Below, piece by piece: positions 14,700-34,545 of a stretch of DNA of 38,966 bases. Made by a program: the position numbers and the translations under genes. Source of the DNA: an uncultured Armatimonadota bacterium (GTDB lineage Bacteria; Armatimonadota; Fimbriimonadia; Fimbriimonadales; Fimbriimonadaceae); NCBI GenBank assembly GCA_903927345.1, contig CAIYMO010000048.1, positions 1 through 38,966 on the forward strand. Direction: 5' to 3'. The notes beneath the pieces are model-generated. The model had not been told where the DNA came from. It did no database searches and worked only from the letters and a program-made list of their open reading frames with translations. Every line of letters begins with the position of its first letter. Position 1 is the first letter of the stretch.

Positions 14700-16603
14700 T
14701 GGGCAGATTTCATCACGGCTTCAAATAATTTACCGTCTGGAGAGATCATGGGGAGCCACCACGCTGCGGGGCGACGGTTGGCGTTCTCCAGACCGGTACT
14801 CGAGATGATCGCTTCGCGAATCAGTTTCAGGCGCTTTAGCTCCGCTTCGATCTCGATCTCTCGTCTTCGCTCGTGCGCTCGCATGACGGCGGGATCTTGG
14901 GCGGCTTCTCGCTGCTTTCGTCCGAGTTTGGTTAACGCGCTACGCAGGGAGTCTCGCTCTGCTTCAAGAAGGAAGATCTTTTGGGTGAATCGAGCACGGG
15001 CTTCCATGTCTGCCTCGGAGGCGAGGCGGTCATAGATTCTGGAGCGAAAATGCTCGCCCTTTTGATGTTCGAGCTCTTGCCACTCGGTTCGGATTTCGCG
15101 AAGACGACCGTAGATCCGGTGCCGCTTCTTGTTGAGCTCGGAGACTTCTCTTGCGAGGGTAGATAGCTGTCGTTGCAGGACGATGTATTCCTTGGCTTGT
15201 GTGCTCCATGCACCACCGACAAGCGCGTGGAGGTATTGGACGAGGTCAACCGGCTTCTTAAGCGTTCCTAGCCGCGCAAGACGCTCCTTTTGTGCTTCTC
15301 CGACTGCCCGCCATCGCGAAGCGAAGGATGAGAAGCAAACATCTTCGGAACCAAAGGCAAAGTGGAGCGGCTCGGGGAGCTTGAACCAGCCTTGCACGCC
15401 AGCGAGGGAGTCCCAGAGCTGGTAGCGGATGCGAAGGATTGGATTCACCTTGAAGTCTAGTTTTCGGTGAAGCTCCCTCGAAGCTCTTACGTAACCCGAT
15501 GCGCCCTCGTGGAAGGAGAAGACGAACTCCCGGCCGAGCATCCCGATGAGCGTTACTGCTTTGCCAACGAGAACGCAGTTCGGGCCGAATTTCGCCTCGA
15601 TTATCGCCGCGAACTCTTCAAGGGTTTGGATCGGCTTTTTGAAACTGAAGAACTGGGGCTTAGGGGTGTTGATGACTGCACCGCGGTTGCCAATACGGAT
15701 CGTGCCACGACCGATCCCGGGGATAACGAGATCGAAGGGAATTGCTCCAGTGCCGAACTTGGACAGGCTGTAGAGGCCGGGGTATCCCTTGATCGCTTCA
15801 TCGTAGGCGGAGCGGGCAGACGGGGATTCGATGAACTTGCGAACGAGTTCAAATCGTGGAAGCGTGCACGTAGCCGAGTTGAAGCGAAGCAGTTCGCTGG
15901 TCTGGGTGGTGTCTAGGGAGACTTGCTGAATAGCAACGAAAGAGTAGATGCTGGGGATCAGCTCTCGGTAAACGGTGGAGAGCGTCTGACCATCGATTTC
16001 GGCGGCGTTACAGAATGCCGCATGAAGTTCGTCGCCTTTGGAGATTGCCTTTTGAAGCCCATCGCCTCCGAAAGAAGAGGTTGACTCGTCGATGGCCCAC
16101 TTGAGCGTTTTGCAGAGCTCTCGGCTGAGTGCATCGGCTTTGACTTCCAGGGTGATCGGTGGTTGCTCATCAAGCGAGACGATGCCACGCCATCCCCATG
16201 CTTGCGTGGCTTCGTCGAGGAAGCCTTTGCGGACCTGACTGAGCCGATCAAACCTCAGGCCGGCTTTGAGGAGGGCGTCTTTGGTGATGACGGTCTCCGA
16301 ACCGAAAAGGCAGGAGAACTCTGCGGCGGCGGACCAGAGGGCTTTTGTCGAGCCATCGTTGTGGGGCAAGGTTAGGAACTGGTTCTTAGCGTGCTTGGTG
16401 CCCGGTGCTTTCGCGAAGTAGTCCGTATCGTGGACTCCGGCGACAAACTTGACTCCCTGCTTGGAGGCTTCCATCGCGAGACCGGCCTTCATGGGTTCAT
16501 CCCAAAAGACGGTCTGACCGAGGGCGAGGAGTGGAGCGCCAGGCGCGACAGTGCTGAGCTGTTCTACAGCCTCTTGCAATGTCAAACAATCCGGTTCGCT
16601 CAT
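14675..16603 (-). CDS. large protein of unknown function with C-terminal coiled coil
   Basis: 642 residues from ATG 16603; an in-frame ATG at 16645 would add 14 residues of unlikely sequence. I do not recognise the family. The N-terminus (APLLALGQTVFWDEPMKAG, then VKFVAGVHDTDYF) reads like an alpha/beta nucleotide- or sugar-binding fold. The middle is globular. Residues about 470-600 are strongly charged and helical (LSTLAREVSELNKKRHRIYG to EIEIEAELKRLKLIREAI), a likely coiled coil. The end carries the Trp/Pro-rich RRPAAWWLPMISPDGKLFEA. A resemblance in layout to the cysteine ligase BshC (Rossmann-like front, coiled-coil end) was noticed but is too weak to assert. The 25-base overlap with dapF suggests coupled expression and perhaps an envelope-related role. 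Confidence 0.72.
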   Translation of the reverse strand: MSEPDCLTLQEAVEQLSTVAPGAPLLALGQTVFWDEPMKAGLAMEASKQGVKFVAGVHDTDYFAKAPGTKHAKNQFLTLPHNDGSTKALWSAAAEFSCLFGSETVITKDALLKAGLRFDRLSQVRKGFLDEATQAWGWRGIVSLDEQPPITLEVKADALSRELCKTLKWAIDESTSSFGGDGLQKAISKGDELHAAFCNAAEIDGQTLSTVYRELIPSIYSFVAIQQVSLDTTQTSELLRFNSATCTLPRFELVRKFIESPSARSAYDEAIKGYPGLYSLSKFGTGAIPFDLVIPGIGRGTIRIGNRGAVINTPKPQFFSFKKPIQTLEEFAAIIEAKFGPNCVLVGKAVTLIGMLGREFVFSFHEGASGYVRASRELHRKLDFKVNPILRIRYQLWDSLAGVQGWFKLPEPLHFAFGSEDVCFSSFASRWRAVGEAQKERLARLGTLKKPVDLVQYLHALVGGAWSTQAKEYIVLQRQLSTLAREVSELNKKRHRIYGRLREIRTEWQELEHQKGEHFRSRIYDRLASEADMEARARFTQKIFLLEAERDSLRSALTKLGRKQREAAQDPAVMRAHERRREIEIEAELKRLKLIREAIISSTGLENANRRPAAWWLPMISPDGKLFEAVMKSAQCWWEPMN

Positions 16604-16697
16604 CCGACCATATTCTCTATGCCGAAACGTCCGGCAGGGTTCCACTTTACCGCTAATTTCTAGTCTAGAGGCTCACTCCTATAGTCACAAACCCAGA

Positions 16698-17105
16698 CTA
16701 GAGAGTCTCTGTCAAGTGCTTAAGAAGTTCATCGTGTCCGACATAGAAGTGTTGCGAGAACTCGCCTGGCTTGAGCCAGATGAGGGCGGACGGGACGCCG
16801 TGAAGAATGACTGACGCGACTTCGTGGGATTCGGCAGTGGTGACGGGACCTTGGTCAATCGACGTGATCATAAGGTGAAGCAGGTCTTCTTCGCCTTCGA
16901 ATTGGTAGCGGTAAGTGCTAATCGTACCGCCGAAGTCATTTGCTTCGAGGCCGACGTTGATCAACGCGAACTGGTCGGAAGGTCGTTCGCGTTGGGGGTC
17001 GAATACGGGAAGTTTGATGCGCGTTTCTGTTCGCGTGCAGTCCAAGATTTTAGCCATGACGCGGTTGCGCTGGGCGATTTCAGCTTCAGTTGGAGCGAGC
17101 GGCAT
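16698..17105 (-). CDS. conserved-looking small protein of unknown function
   Basis: 135 residues from ATG 17105; GTG 17108 directly before it is an alternative. There is no signal peptide or membrane segment, so it is probably cytoplasmic. The N-terminal half is helical with many charged residues (EIAQRNRVMAKILDC). The rest alternates strands, including FALINVGLEANDFGG and ALIWLKPGEFSQHFYVGHDE. No motif identifies a family. It is the first gene of the minus-strand group with the 642 aa unknown and dapF (95 bases to the next start). TATACT lies 8 bases before the ATG and overlaps the promoter of the divergent VOC gene. Confidence 0.65.
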   Translation of the reverse strand: MPLAPTEAEIAQRNRVMAKILDCTRTETRIKLPVFDPQRERPSDQFALINVGLEANDFGGTISTYRYQFEGEEDLLHLMITSIDQGPVTTAESHEVASVILHGVPSALIWLKPGEFSQHFYVGHDELLKHLTETL

Positions 17106-17113
17106 CACCTAGG

Positions 17114-17121
17114 AGTATACA
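17114..17121. promoter_or_regulatory. shared symmetric -10-like element for two divergent genes
   Basis: The palindrome GTATAC (17115-17120) gives TATACA on the plus strand, 7 bases before the VOC ATG at 17129. On the minus strand it gives TATACT, 8 bases before the ATG at 17105. The start codons are only 23 bases apart, so both RNAs would be essentially leaderless. Confidence 0.5.
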
Positions 17122-17128
17122 GTCCTGT

Positions 17129-17578
17129 ATGGGTGAGTACACCGTTCCCGCAGGGACCCGGATTGGGCACGTCCACTTGAAAGTGAGTGATCTTGAACGA
17201 TCGCTTGAGTTTTATTGTGGAGTGCTGGGATTTGAGCTGACCCAGCGATACGGCGCAGATGCGGCATTCATTTCTGCAGGCGGGTATCACCACCACATTG
17301 GACTCAACCAGTGGCAGAGCAAGGGCTCTCCACCGGCTCCGAGCCGAGCCCCAGGTCTGTTTCACGTTGCGATTCTGTACGAAACCCGGGAAGAGCTACA
17401 TGACGCAGTCCACCGCGTTGCACATCTGATTGAAGGTTCGGCTGACCACGGGGTCAGCGAGGCGTTCTATCTGAGCGATCCTGACGGAAACGGTATTGAA
17501 CTCTACTGGGATAAGCCCGAAGATCAGTGGCCCCGAGACGAAAAAAACGGTCTTGCGATGTACACAAGACCGTTGTAA
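17129..17578 (+). CDS. VOC-family protein, extradiol-dioxygenase (CatE)-like
   Basis: 149 residues and one vicinal-oxygen-chelate module pair. The usual ligands are present: His in GHVHLKVSD (His14/His16), His79 in GLFHVAIL and Glu124 in DPDGNGIELYWD. The C-terminal string YLSDPDGNGIELYWDKPEDQW closely matches proteins annotated as CatE/catechol-2,3-dioxygenase or glyoxalase-like. Those often have two modules and about 285 residues, whereas this is a single 149-residue unit. The substrate is therefore unknown. ATG 17129 is chosen because it fits the family N-terminus and the -10 spacing; an in-frame extension to 17090 would run back through the divergent gene's start. The last 30-odd coding bases contain a terminator that serves the opposite strand. 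Confidence 0.87.
   Translation: MGEYTVPAGTRIGHVHLKVSDLERSLEFYCGVLGFELTQRYGADAAFISAGGYHHHIGLNQWQSKGSPPAPSRAPGLFHVAILYETREELHDAVHRVAHLIEGSADHGVSEAFYLSDPDGNGIELYWDKPEDQWPRDEKNGLAMYTRPL
17541..17574 (-). terminator. intrinsic terminator for the minus strand, embedded in the VOC gene
   Basis: AACGGTCTTG (17546-17555) and CAAGACCGTT (17565-17574) form a perfect 10-bp stem with a 9-base loop. Read on the minus strand it ends in TTTTTTT (17547-17541). It lies 18 bases beyond the stop of the small lipoprotein gene, inside the last codons of the convergent VOC gene. Confidence 0.8.
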
Positions 17579-17591
17579 TTGAAAAAGTGTT

Positions 17592-17876
17592 TTAGCGTCC
17601 TGGGATGTTTGGTGTGCCCGCAGGAGGAGCGGTTGCGGCGGCAACATCTGCGTCGGAGAGATTATATTTCTTCTTAATCTCTTCGATGCGAGCGGCTTTA
17701 TCCGCTGCAGGTGCCGGGCTTGCCTGGATCAGTCGAATCTGATCTGCAGGTGGCTGGGAAGCAACTTCTTTTTGGAATTGCTCGGTAGATGGTCCTTCAG
17801 GAGCGTTTCCGACGTTGCATCCAGAGATCAGTGATCCAGCTGCGATTGTGAGAAGGGCGATTGAATATTTCTTCAT
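17592..17876 (-). CDS. small lipoprotein of unknown function
   Basis: 94 residues. The signal peptide MKKYSIALLTIAAGSLISGC ends in a good lipobox with Cys20. The mature protein has a proline/alanine-rich, helix-prone body (IEEIKKKYNLSDADVAAATA) and no recognised domain. It lies 48 bases after the pseudopilin stop on the same strand, but a strong terminator sits between them, so it is either a read-through gene of that operon or separately transcribed. It has its own terminator inside the neighbouring VOC gene. Confidence 0.75.
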   Translation of the reverse strand: MKKYSIALLTIAAGSLISGCNVGNAPEGPSTEQFQKEVASQPPADQIRLIQASPAPAADKAARIEEIKKKYNLSDADVAAATAPPAGTPNIPGR

Positions 17877-17924: not shown

Positions 17925-18815
17925 TTACTGGAAGTTAGGAGCCGCGTAGTTGGTGCCCCAGTAGTAGAAGCACTGGCCGGCGTTTGGATCTCCGCTCCAC
18001 GCGTTTGCAGGAGGGCAGGTATTCCAGAAGCCGTAGTCGGTGTTGTTGAACGCGCGTCCGTATGCGCCGAGCATTGCCTTGGTCGCATAGGTCTTTGCGT
18101 GGGTGTCAGCAAAGACAATGTTGTTCTTTTCGTTGTGCATGCCCTTGTAGTTTGCACCCCAGAACGATGCACCTGGCCAGTCGGTGTTGTCTGGGAAGGT
18201 GTAGAGCAAAGGAACCTTCGCTTGCGAGGTGAAGGTCATCGTTGGGGATGGTCCGATTCGCTCGTTTCCATCACCGTTGCTTCCACCGGTGGTGAGGTTG
18301 GTACCCAGCTGGGCGTAGCCGCCGGTAACGCCAGTGTTAGGGCAAGCATTTGCCTTGTATCCGAAAAGCACGATGTTTACATCGTAGTCGGTCGCTGGAT
18401 AGATATCGTCGAAGAAGTTAGCTGCGCCACGGGTCGAAACACCGAGACCGATACACGGATCGTTCGGGTTGATAACGTAGTTACCGAAGCCGTTCTGACC
18501 TTGCTTTCGCTGGTAGGTTCCAATCTTATATGGGGAAGCAGGGCTCTTGAACATGTCCATGTTCTTGACATAAGGCTTCAGGTAGGCGTGGAAGACGTAT
18601 GGCTCGTAAATCTTTGTGCCTGGAATGTTATCATCTGCATCCGAAGCGTAGATGTGCACTGCGGTACCCGTCTGCTTCATGTTGGAGAGACAGGAAGCCT
18701 TTTTAGCAGCAGCCTTCGCCTGAGCGAAAACTGGGAAGAGGATCGCGGCGAGGATTGCGATAATCGCAATCACGACGAGGAGTTCGATGAGCGTAAACGC
18801 TCGATTGTTTTTCAT
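17925..18815 (-). CDS. DUF1559-type pseudopilin (type IV prepilin N-terminus)
   Basis: 296 residues. The N-terminus [19 protein letters not shown] is a textbook type IV/type II prepilin helix, with cleavage expected before Phe in the K/R-A-F-T-L-I-E context. A large extracellular beta-rich domain follows. The C-terminal signature of DUF1559 proteins (His, nine residues, Asp-Gly) is seen as [15 protein letters not shown], with Asp-Thr in place of Asp-Gly. Such proteins are displayed by pilin-like secretion systems and are abundant in Planctomycetes and Armatimonadota; their functions are mostly unknown. The ATG overlaps the stop of the GH13 gene by four bases (ATGA), so it is translated from the starch-degradation operon. 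A strong terminator follows. Confidence 0.93.
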
Positions 18816-31478: not shown

Positions 31479-32240
31479 TTACTTCAGATCCGATCCGTCG
31501 CAGCCACCGGGGGTGAGGTTTGGATCTGCAGATCCAAAGTTTGGATTCACGGTCATCTGAGTAACTGGCACGTTCTTCGAGTGACCATCGACGAACGTCA
31601 GGTTTCGACGACCTTCCAGGAATCCTGGACCCATTGAGAAACCGGCATTCTTTCCCCAGGGTCCCACAGGACCAGTTGGGCCGAAGTTGTGGGCATTCAC
31701 CCACTCAAAAACCATCACTTTGGAAGCTGGCTGAGAAACCTGTGTAAACGAGATGCTCGTACAAGTATCCACTGGGCATGGTCCGTCACCAGCGAGCTGG
31801 AAGAGCGAGGTGACCGATGCAATAAACGCAGGCGGGCGGTAGAGCGACGAGACATACGAATATGAAGTGTCGTTGAAGGCAGTCTTGGAAGAATCCGAAG
31901 GGCAGTACAGGAGCGCGGACGAGGAGTCTGAGTCGTATTGACTTGTCGCTCGGCTCTTTTGGCCAACGGCGAGGTAAGGCATGATGGGCCAACGGAATCT
32001 ACGACCCGTCCAGAGACCGGTAACGTTGGTGTTCGGGAACATATCGCCGGCGTCGGCTCCATAGAGGTTGAACGCTAGACCGATGTTCTTCAGGTTCGAC
32101 AAACACTGAGTTTGCTTTGCCGCTTCCTTTGCTCGAGAGAAGACCGGGAATAGAATCGCCGCAAGAATTGCGATGATCGCAATCACCACAAGGAGCTCGA
32201 TAAGCGTAAATGCGCGACGATTGTGCATTGGGGCCAACAT
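31479..32240 (-). CDS. DUF1559-type pseudopilin
   Basis: 253 residues from ATG 32240, where AAGG stands 7 bases upstream; ATG 32228 ([11 protein letters not shown]) is an alternative, and a longer frame to 32351 would cover the promoter. Prepilin signal [20 protein letters not shown] with cleavage before Phe. The body is a beta-rich exported domain with Cys pairs. Near the C-terminus the DUF1559 signature is [10 protein letters not shown], keeping Asp-Gly but with the upstream His replaced. It is divergent from the UgpC-type ATPase gene, with a symmetric -10 between them. Confidence 0.9.
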
Positions 32241-32288
32241 AAAGATACCTTGGTGGTCGATTGGGGGTCGAAATCTGAGAAGAAACAG

Positions 32289-32296
32289 GTTATAAT
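32289..32296. promoter_or_regulatory. symmetric -10 element between the pseudopilin and UgpC-type ATPase genes
   Basis: The plus strand reads TATAAT (32291-32296), 39 bases before the TTG at 32336. The minus strand reads TATAAC (32294-32289), 48 bases before the ATG at 32240. The core TTATAA is a palindrome. Both genes have a recognisable ribosome binding site, so here leadered transcripts are expected. Confidence 0.55.
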
Positions 32297-32335
32297 CGGC
32301 GTGAACCCCAGTGTTGGGGATCAACGGAGCAACAA

Positions 32336-33472
32336 TTGGCAGGAGTCGCATTCAAAGGCGTAAGCAAAATTTTTGGCAAGGACGTCAAAGCCGTCAACGA
32401 TCTGAACCTTGAGGTTAAGGATCAAGAATTTATGGTCCTCGTTGGACCATCGGGTTGCGGTAAGACCACCGCTCTCCGAATGATTGCCGGCCTTGAAGAA
32501 GCTTCGCTGGGCGACATTATGATTGGCGAAGTTCGCGTCAACGATGTTCCGCCGAAGGATCGAGACATCGCGATGGTTTTCCAAAACTACGCGCTCTATC
32601 CTCACATGAATGTTTATGACAACATCGCCTTTGGTCTACGACTTCGAGAACTGAAGGGCTTTTTCTGGCAGCTCGCTAATGCTTCGGAAGCAAAGCGAAT
32701 CAAGGAAGATATTGATAACCGGGTCAAGGAAGCTGCTCGCATGCTTGACATCGAAAAGTATCTGACTCGTCGTCCAAAGGAGCTTTCGGGTGGTCAGCGA
32801 CAACGTGTCGCTCTTGCTCGCGCTATCGTCCGAAAGCCGAAGGTCTTCTTGATGGACGAGCCTCTTTCGAACTTGGATGCTAAGCTCCGCGTCCAGACCC
32901 GATACGAGCTGATCTCGCTCCACAGAAAGCTGGGTATCACCACGGTTTACGTCACTCACGACCAGGTCGAAGCTATGACCATGGGTCAGCGAATGGCGAT
33001 TATGAAGGACGGCGTTCTTCAGCAGTGCGACAAGCCAGAAGAGGTTTATTCGCACCCAGCAAACAAGTTTGTTGCTGGTTTCATTGGATCGCCTCCAATG
33101 AACTTCCTTGATGCAGTGATTAAGGATGGTCGAGTGGATGCAGGTGCGTTCTCGCTGCCTCTTCCAAGCGGTCATCCCGCGATTGCGATGAACGGTCAGC
33201 GCGTTACTTTGGGCATCCGACCTGAGGAGCTGTTCGACAAGGCGTTGCCGACAAACGTTCCAGCGACTCCTGACAACACGCTTAAGGCGGTTGTCGATGT
33301 TATGGAGCCACTCGGTCACGAGTATGTTGCTTACCTGCAGGTCAACGGTGCCAAGTTGGTTGCTTCGATCGACAAGGAAACTAAGCTGCGCCCTGGCTCC
33401 GAAGCTGAGATTCTGATCAACCTTGATCGAATCCACATCTTCGATGCGGACACCGAACAAGCAGTTCGCTAG
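32336..33472 (+). CDS. sugar ABC transporter ATP-binding protein, UgpC/MalK/MsmK family
   Basis: 378 residues from TTG 32336, preceded by GGAG. Walker A is GPSGCGKTT (37-45), the signature [14 protein letters not shown] (150-163), Walker [13 protein letters not shown] (171-182) and the switch His208. A C-terminal OB/TOBE regulatory domain typical of MalK-type ATPases occupies about residues 240-378. An insertion of roughly 20 residues follows LRLRELK (about 107-127) in the helical subdomain that contacts the permeases. No permease or binding protein is adjacent, so it may be a shared ATPase serving several sugar importers, as MsmK does. A hairpin terminator follows. Confidence 0.95.
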
Positions 33473-33546: not shown

Positions 33547-34545
33547 ATGTTCCGAAAGGCGTTTACTCTTATTGAGCTTCTGGTTGTTATTGCGATTATC
33601 GCAATCCTTGCCGCTATCCTTTTCCCAGTTTTTGCTCAGGCGAAGCTTGCAGCTAAGAAATCTGCTGACCTCAGCAACTCAAAGCAAATCGGCATCGGTC
33701 TGCAACTTTACATTGCTGATAACGATGATGTCTTCATGCCGAGCAACCACCGGGAGAACAGCTCAGCTGGTAACGAAGTTCACTGGAGCTGGATGACTGT
33801 TCCTTACATGAAGAACGAGCAGATCTTTGTTAGCCCTGTCGATGCTATCGGTGGATGGGCACCTGGTTGCGCCGATCGAACCAACAACAACCGAGGATTT
33901 GGCGAACCTGCCATGCAACGAGCGGTTGACGGTTGTGCTTTGCAAGGCTACCAGGCTGGGGTGTACACGCTCCAGGTCGGACGGATCTCTTACGTTGCGA
34001 ACCAGTCGATCATTGGTCGAAAGCGATCGGACGCAGATACAGCAAACGTTGTCAGTGCGACGGCCATTGACGGAGTGAGCCAAACGATCTTGGTTGCTCC
34101 TGCGACCGAAAAGCAGTTCTGTATGCAAGCCAGTGCAGGTGGTGAGTACCGATCCTACCGACCTGCGTTTGGTATTGCACGACGAGGACAGCGCGATCTC
34201 AGTGGTTCCAGTGTTCCTACCTCGGCCGCTGATCTCCCGCTCGAAGCGATGACCGTTTCTGGCGCTGCTACGGGACAGTTGGGTAAGTGGGTCGGCAAGG
34301 GTACGGTCGGCGCAGTCTTTAGCTGCGAGTTGTTGCCGACCAATGGCGGCCTCGCTCACACTCTCCGATACACCAATGGCGGACGATTTGACACGGGTAA
34401 CAACTACGTGTTCGCTGATTCCAGTGCTAAGTTCCAGCCGATTGCTGCAACGTTTAGCGTCAATCGATATATGTGGGGTAAAGCTGCCTACTCGTTGGGT
34501 GGTCTTCCAGTCATGGATCCTGCGACTGGCCTTCAAGTTCAGTAA
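33547..34545 (+). CDS. DUF1559-type pseudopilin
   Basis: 332 residues. Prepilin signal [20 protein letters not shown], identical over the membrane helix to the two other pseudopilins of the window. The exported domain is long. Its C-terminal signature reads [12 protein letters not shown], so both the His and the Gly of the usual His-x9-Asp-Gly motif are replaced. The start ATG lies 11 bases after the ATPase terminator hairpin, so the gene depends either on read-through or on a promoter overlapping the hairpin. A terminator-like hairpin follows. Confidence 0.92.

Follow-up and report, generated by a model that had tools for sequence, protein, structure and literature searches.

The window, by which we mean the whole stretch of 38,966 nucleotides analysed here (contig C48 of genome G000, which has a size of about 3.1 Mb), contains two divergent genes whose start codons are separated by 23 bp. 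The features of this locus are:

16698–17105, minus strand: minus-strand gene, an ORF of 135 aa with its ATG at 17105–17103 and no family match found in Pfam or NCBIfam
17129–17578, plus strand: plus-strand gene, encoding a 149-aa protein of the VOC/glyoxalase superfamily (PF00903, E 1.8e-15)
17106–17128, unstranded: 23-bp intergenic region, the putative holder of the whole common promoter, equal in length in the relatives G015 and G018
17111–17124, unstranded: conserved core AGGAGTATACA[G/A]TC, invariant across three species at 13 of its 14 positions
17111–17115, plus strand: AGGAG, conserved and ending 13 bases before the ATG, a possible distant Shine-Dalgarno sequence of the plus-strand gene
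17114–17119, minus strand: predicted −10 TATACT, 8 bases from the minus-strand ATG and identical in three species; TANNNT at 6–9 bp is the leaderless-type signature of the genome
17115–17120, unstranded: palindrome GTATAC, on which an earlier note on this DNA was centred, found by direct reading and by an inverted-repeat search
17116–17121, plus strand: TATACA, the plus-strand −10 of the earlier note, 7 bases from the plus-strand ATG, without a T at the sixth position and conserved in three species
17118–17123, plus strand: TACAGT (TACAAT in G015), the preferred predicted plus-strand −10, 5 bases from the plus-strand ATG, with TA 17118–17119 common to it and the minus-strand −10

By direct reading, the full sequence of the 23-base gap (17106–17128) is CACCTAGGAGTATACAGTCCTGT, and AGTATACA occupies 17114–17121 between the minus-strand ATG at 17105 and the plus-strand ATG at 17129. 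Counted from first base to first base, the two start codons lie 24 positions from each other. The letters and distances given in the earlier note are confirmed: it had derived TATACT on the minus strand and TATACA on the plus strand from GTATAC, placed both start codons 7–8 bases away (8 for the ATG at 17105 and 7 for that at 17129) and put the intergenic distance at 23 bases. TATACT on the minus strand and TACAGT on the plus strand together make up ANNNTANNNT (17114–17123), in which −10-like hexamers on opposite strands overlap with common key bases, an arrangement kept in three species. No sigma-70-like −35/−10 promoter scored in 16500–17700 (0 found, 0.5 expected), the best −35 matches at both sides reach only 2–3 of 6 letters in three species, and in these species the 80 bp upstream of each ATG contain no further TANNNT.

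Elsewhere in the window, a terminator-like hairpin with a T run (17546–17574, minus strand) is contained in the 3′-terminal part of the VOC coding sequence, where it is placed to end the minus-strand ORF 17592–17876. Three pilin-like ORFs (17925–18815, 31479–32351 and 33547–34545), which we take to be DUF1559-like, have nearly the same N-terminal segment.

Conservation of the gene pair

Matches to the minus-strand gene are present in 45 of the 61 searched genomes and matches to the VOC gene in 32 of 61. By the listed coordinates, G015 and G018 are the only ones among 60 other genomes in which the two genes lie side by side and divergent with an equal 23-bp gap and the same two ATGs; the pair is known from three species, all of one genus. 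Both ATGs align in G000, G015 and G018, the MPLAPT start of the minus-strand gene is kept in all three, and the VOC protein is 89% identical in G015 and 85% in G018. A GTG at 17108, 5 bases from TATACT, was rejected as the minus-strand start, given that G018 has no start codon at this place and the ATG at 17105 aligns in all three.

Across the three species the gap is identical at 16 of 23 positions, compared with 16 of 105 for fourfold sites in both coding sequences, an agreement with a binomial P of 7e-9 under the fourfold rate. The sole variable base of the core is 17122 (G, A and G in the three species), and T17123 and C17124 are kept even though they lie outside the minus-strand −10 hexamer. 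It is this conservation, and not the palindrome or a promoter score, that goes beyond chance, and part of it could stem from one promoter and its flanking contacts. The palindrome was discarded as the key feature, both because three 6-nt inverted repeats occur within 151 bp and because a longer inverted repeat returned by the same search, ATACAG-TC-CTGTAT at 17117–17130, does not have its arms kept, its right half being altered in both G015 and G018. Hence the exact palindrome of the earlier note, in itself an ordinary 6-nt one, does not hold as the defining feature; the element is defined by the TA at 17118–17119 that is common to both hexamers.

Signals before the two genes

In G000, TANNNT ends 6, 7, 8 and 9 bases before the first ATG in 62, 34, 23 and 26 of 702 genes, compared with 7.5 (sd 2.8) per position in the background, which was taken from positions further upstream, the start being set at the first ATG in every ORF call. 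The peak at 6 bases is also present in samples of G007 (258 genes), G018 (290 genes) and G001 (285 genes), and the genus has many probable leaderless genes by this signature. At a distance of 5 bp we count 11, 5, 1 and 3 compared with 7.5, 1.9, 2.7 and 3.6 in G000, G007, G018 and G001, or 20 compared with 15.7 when pooled over the four genomes. Tables made from gene-internal codons show a similar peak, and being an uneven control they are unsuited to single distances.

With its spacing of 8 bp, TATACT falls within the 6–9 bp TANNNT peak of the genome. The minus-strand gene is without a Shine-Dalgarno sequence, as none of GGAG, AGGA, GAGG or GGTG is present at bases −16 to −5 (L003, L004 and L005). 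Among its relatives, examined as the best 30 of 45 matches, 19 loci sit downstream of a tRNA-Ser(GGA) on the same strand, which lies 7–382 bp from the chosen start candidate (at most 143 bp in 18 of them). TANNNT at 5–9 bp before the candidate start is found in none of these 19 loci and in 9 of the 11 loci without an upstream tRNA-Ser(GGA), the other two (L007 and L031) having neither. The split gives a Fisher P of 4e-6 (9e-5 once the three window-pair loci are removed), for loci that are related and not independent draws. This absence behind the tRNA and presence in 9 of 11 other loci argue for TANNNT as the own promoter of the minus-strand gene, and the simplest reading is that the gene would ride the tRNA transcript where possible and use a leaderless promoter of its own elsewhere. 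The separation from the tRNA is at most 31 bp in 12 of the 19 tRNA-Ser(GGA)-linked loci (L009, L012, L018, L020, L023, L026, L029, L030, L032 and ten more), and in tRNA-linked loci 3′ processing of the tRNA may release an mRNA with hardly any leader.

For the plus-strand gene, TACAGT is the more likely −10, with TATACA as a possible second candidate. Two points favour TACAGT: the variable base 17122 coincides with one of the free positions in TANNNT, with T17123 unchanged, and the hexamers of ANNNTANNNT share their TA in what is, by our own geometry, the 23-bp register. TATACA at 7 bp is not a TANNNT, and TANNNA 7 bases before the first ATG occurs 9 times compared with 6.3 (sd 2.5) in G000 and 26 times compared with 13.8 when pooled over four genomes, mostly through G001 (11 compared with 2.7). 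The distance of TACAGT, 5 bp, lies outside the 6–9 bp peak, and it counts against TACAGT that too short a distance from −10 to ORF disturbs expression, as stated in the available text of a study of leaderless genes (PMC12340547). A 5.6-fold enrichment at this distance in G000 relative to gene-internal ATGs was abandoned as an argument for TACAGT, since that control fluctuates with a three-base periodicity and dips at 5, 8 and 11 bp, and the further-upstream background leaves 5 bp only slightly above background. Among the relatives of the VOC gene, TANNNT is present at 5–9 bp before the candidate start in 10 of 19 loci (of 30), three of which are the window pair at 5 bp; L046 has too little upstream sequence. 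The VOC protein itself has at least 80 relatives at 63–70% identity from Bacteroidota, Alphaproteobacteria, Verrucomicrobiota and others (a set that may omit records close to the source genome), a spread over phyla that suggests horizontal spread.

The short distance of TACAGT and the conserved AGGAG make the leaderless start of the plus-strand gene less secure than that of the minus-strand gene. None of GGAG, AGGA or GAGG is present at bases −16 to −5 of the plus-strand gene, yet AGGAG ends 13 bases before its ATG, where it may be a weak Shine-Dalgarno sequence. In the genus, AGGAG/GGAGG is enriched before starts, most at 4–12 bases and somewhat still at 13, with 9 occurrences compared with 2.9 over the four samples (the window pair accounts for two of the nine, leaving 7) and 4 of 702 compared with 1.06 in G000 alone. 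This enrichment, together with the identity of AGGAG in three species and a genome signature that fits the minus-strand −10 and not fully the plus-strand one, speaks for a one-sided promoter, in which TATACT would be a leaderless −10 for the minus-strand gene only and the plus-strand gene would be transcribed from inside the minus-strand gene, with a leader carrying AGGAG as its Shine-Dalgarno sequence. However, 13 bases is long for Shine-Dalgarno spacing, TACAGT is the sole TANNNT within 130 bp upstream of the plus-strand ATG in G000 and G018 (G015 has one other, 87 bp away), and the conserved T17123 and C17124 fall outside the only −10 that such a promoter would need in the gap. We regard the one-sided promoter as unlikely, although it is the alternative that fares best.

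Other tight divergent pairs

Tight divergent pairs were surveyed in approximately 1.0 Mb (a third) of G000 and in 0.4 Mb each of three other genomes. Counting ATG/ATG combinations only, as the main claim does, the approximately 1.0 Mb of G000 holds 16 divergent combinations of ORF calls at 12–34 bp, some of which are probably spurious ORFs, given that the calls are simple long-ORF calls made with no trained gene finder. TANNNT is present at 5–9 bp on both sides in 3 of the 16, compared with a mean of 0.14 for shuffled gaps, and 3 was reached in 0 of 5,000 shuffles; in the other surveys it is found in 1 of 9 combinations in G018 (the window pair itself) and in 0 of 1 in G007. Two of the three G000 combinations, the window pair and L228:7554–7573, have overlapping −10s. 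With GTG and TTG starts allowed and gaps of 12–40 bp, the double TANNNT is present in 12 of 79 combinations in G000, 0 of 28 in G007, 4 of 37 in G018 and 3 of 26 in G001, many of them with non-ATG starts. A mirror-image control motif on both sides of gaps of up to 120 bp was found 4 times compared with 13 for TANNNT in G000, 1 compared with 1 in G007, and 2 compared with 3 in G018. In a separate observation, a 30-bp stretch between divergent ORF calls (L231:4868–4897 and L266:9458–9487) is identical at 30 of 30 positions in G000 and G018, and L231:3000–7000 has no Rfam match at the gathering score.

The earlier note had proposed looking for the same spacing at other close divergent pairs. The exact spacing pattern has six matches in three genomes, three of which are the window locus, one in each genome; elsewhere it occurs only inside single ORF calls (L209, L210 and L213). 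The backward control of the pattern has two matches. These numbers, and a GTATAC that is unremarkable alone, speak for palindromes and TA-rich hexamers falling beside start codons by chance in a leaderless-rich genome, but chance is a highly doubtful explanation of the whole in view of the conservation (P 7e-9), the match of the exact pattern to the window locus in all three genomes and the 3 of 16 tight combinations where 0.14 are expected. More doubtful still is the operator of a regulator between two ordinary promoters with only incidental −10-like letters, for which the inverted repeat at 17117–17130 and a conservation (17111–17124) extending beyond the hexamers would speak, as the right half of that repeat is altered in both relatives and 23 bp between start codons leaves further promoters room only inside the genes.

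The second pair consists of genes for an aminopeptidase P-like M24 peptidase and a phytase-like protein:

L228:7554–7573 (contig C14 of G000), divergent: second divergent pair, with TATGATA in a 20-bp gap; likewise, with gaps of 18–20 bp, in L275, L276, L277 and L294

In G000, G018, G001, G009 and G008, respectively, the gap that holds TATGATA (TANNNTA) measures 20, 20, 18, 20 and 18 bp, and the two hexamers of the element are 9, 9, 7, 8 and 7 bp from the minus-strand ATG and 6, 6, 6, 7 and 6 bp from the plus-strand ATG. All distances are within the 6–9 bp peak on both strands in the five species, and the opposite-strand −10-like hexamers overlap as TANNNTA in each of them. Because both hexamers are within the peak, the second pair fits the idea of the earlier note better than the window pair does. 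All of the 20 genomes searched contain a match to the peptidase, and 15 loci were checked, one per genome with a strong match: the phytase-like neighbour is present in 6 of the 15 and the element in 5 of these 6, being absent in G005. At the fourfold sites of the peptidase gene, G000 and G018 agree at 78 of 196. TATGATA followed by ATG five bases on has 37 matches in 16 of the 20 whole genomes, compared with 9 for the backward control.

Discussion

The gene pair, its start codons and spacing, the conservation of the element, the leaderless-type signature in four genome samples and the second, similar pair are observed. The best reading is a symmetric −10 common to two divergent, probably leaderless genes. 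This partly supports the earlier note, which had claimed one palindromic −10 for two divergent leaderless genes, and comes with three corrections: TATACA is a poor plus-strand −10, the exact palindrome is not defining, and the plus-strand leaderless start is less secure.

On balance, we favour the view that the 23-bp gap serves as a minimal promoter for both directions, to which the polymerase would bind either way through overlapping −10s, with both directions leaderless or nearly so. In this mechanism, one RNA polymerase would bind the gap in either orientation through −10s that overlap at a common TA step, using TATACT for the minus strand and TACAGT, or less likely TATACA, for the plus strand. 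Given that there is no good −35 at either side, the −10 would work alone, in a way that resembles described −10-only leaderless promoters. The minus-strand transcript would begin at or a few bases from its AUG and be translated leaderless, and the plus-strand transcript would begin at A17129 or up to two bases upstream and be leaderless or nearly so. As the two directions would exclude each other at polymerase binding, the genes would be both coupled and competing. Start sites, −10-only recognition, leaderless translation and mutual exclusion are the parts of this mechanism that we infer.

A broader proposal, on which we are evenly divided, is that bidirectional promoters of a 'zero-leader' class are maintained in the genus, with gaps of 18–23 bp over several species, in which one symmetric −10 would be the entire control region, both messages would be leaderless, and the binding of a single polymerase would couple the two genes of a pair and make them mutually exclusive, in 18-bp and 23-bp registers. 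If true, approximately 20 bp would be a complete control region for two genes, with both promoters, no leaders and no room for other sites, which is near the smallest possible divergent gene pair. Such pairs would offer a clean natural test of how the polymerase chooses its direction at a symmetric −10 without effects of leaders, and they would point to selection on bidirectionality, as both the element and its spacing persist where fourfold sites have almost reached saturation.

Among known systems, the nearest are the bidirectional promoters with a symmetric −10 of Warman, Grainger and colleagues, which, in the available text of these papers, have overlapping opposite-strand −10s with reciprocal key bases (PMC12825309, PMC10268837). 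Their start sites are given as 7–25 bp apart, with 18 bp the commonest and 10 and 23 bp also common; they cannot hold two opposing polymerases together, and activation of one side may bring the two directions into competition (PMC12825309). Start codons 24 apart would fall within this 7–25 bp range if both transcripts are leaderless, and our own geometry places the window pair in the 23-bp register and the second pair in the 18-bp one, as far as the registers are described there. In contrast to the promoters of those available texts, both transcripts here would be protein-coding and would start at or next to the AUG, with the promoter filling the gap; the word 'leaderless' is absent from the main text of both papers. 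The other component is found in leaderless genes with a −10 motif in Deinococcus-Thermus and other bacteria, where TANNNT just upstream of the ORF acts as the −10 and yields a leaderless mRNA according to the available text (PMC12340547, PMC3160421), and genes with TANNNT beside the ORF have been reporter-tested in Deinococcus, as the former describes (PMC12340547). Our samples from four genomes within this genus show a similar TANNNT signature. PMC12340547 uses neither the word 'divergent' nor 'bidirectional', and PMC3160421 does not use 'divergent'.

The combination of a shared −10 with a divergent leaderless pair was not found in the literature searched, as far as its available text extends. 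Among papers on leaderless and bidirectional promoters, no title concerns leaderless pairs with a shared −10, going by titles only; one of them, PMC6640164, deals with an archaeon. A search for literature on Fimbriimonas and leaderless genes returned nothing. Divergent restriction-modification operons such as EcoRV, in the available text on them, are alike in having divergent promoters with overlapping polymerase sites, but differ in being regulated by a C protein, and the leaderless transcript described there belongs to the convergent AhdI system (PMC5333194). Bidirectional promoters and leaderless genes are each known, and our reading joins the two in one short gap without invoking a new principle.
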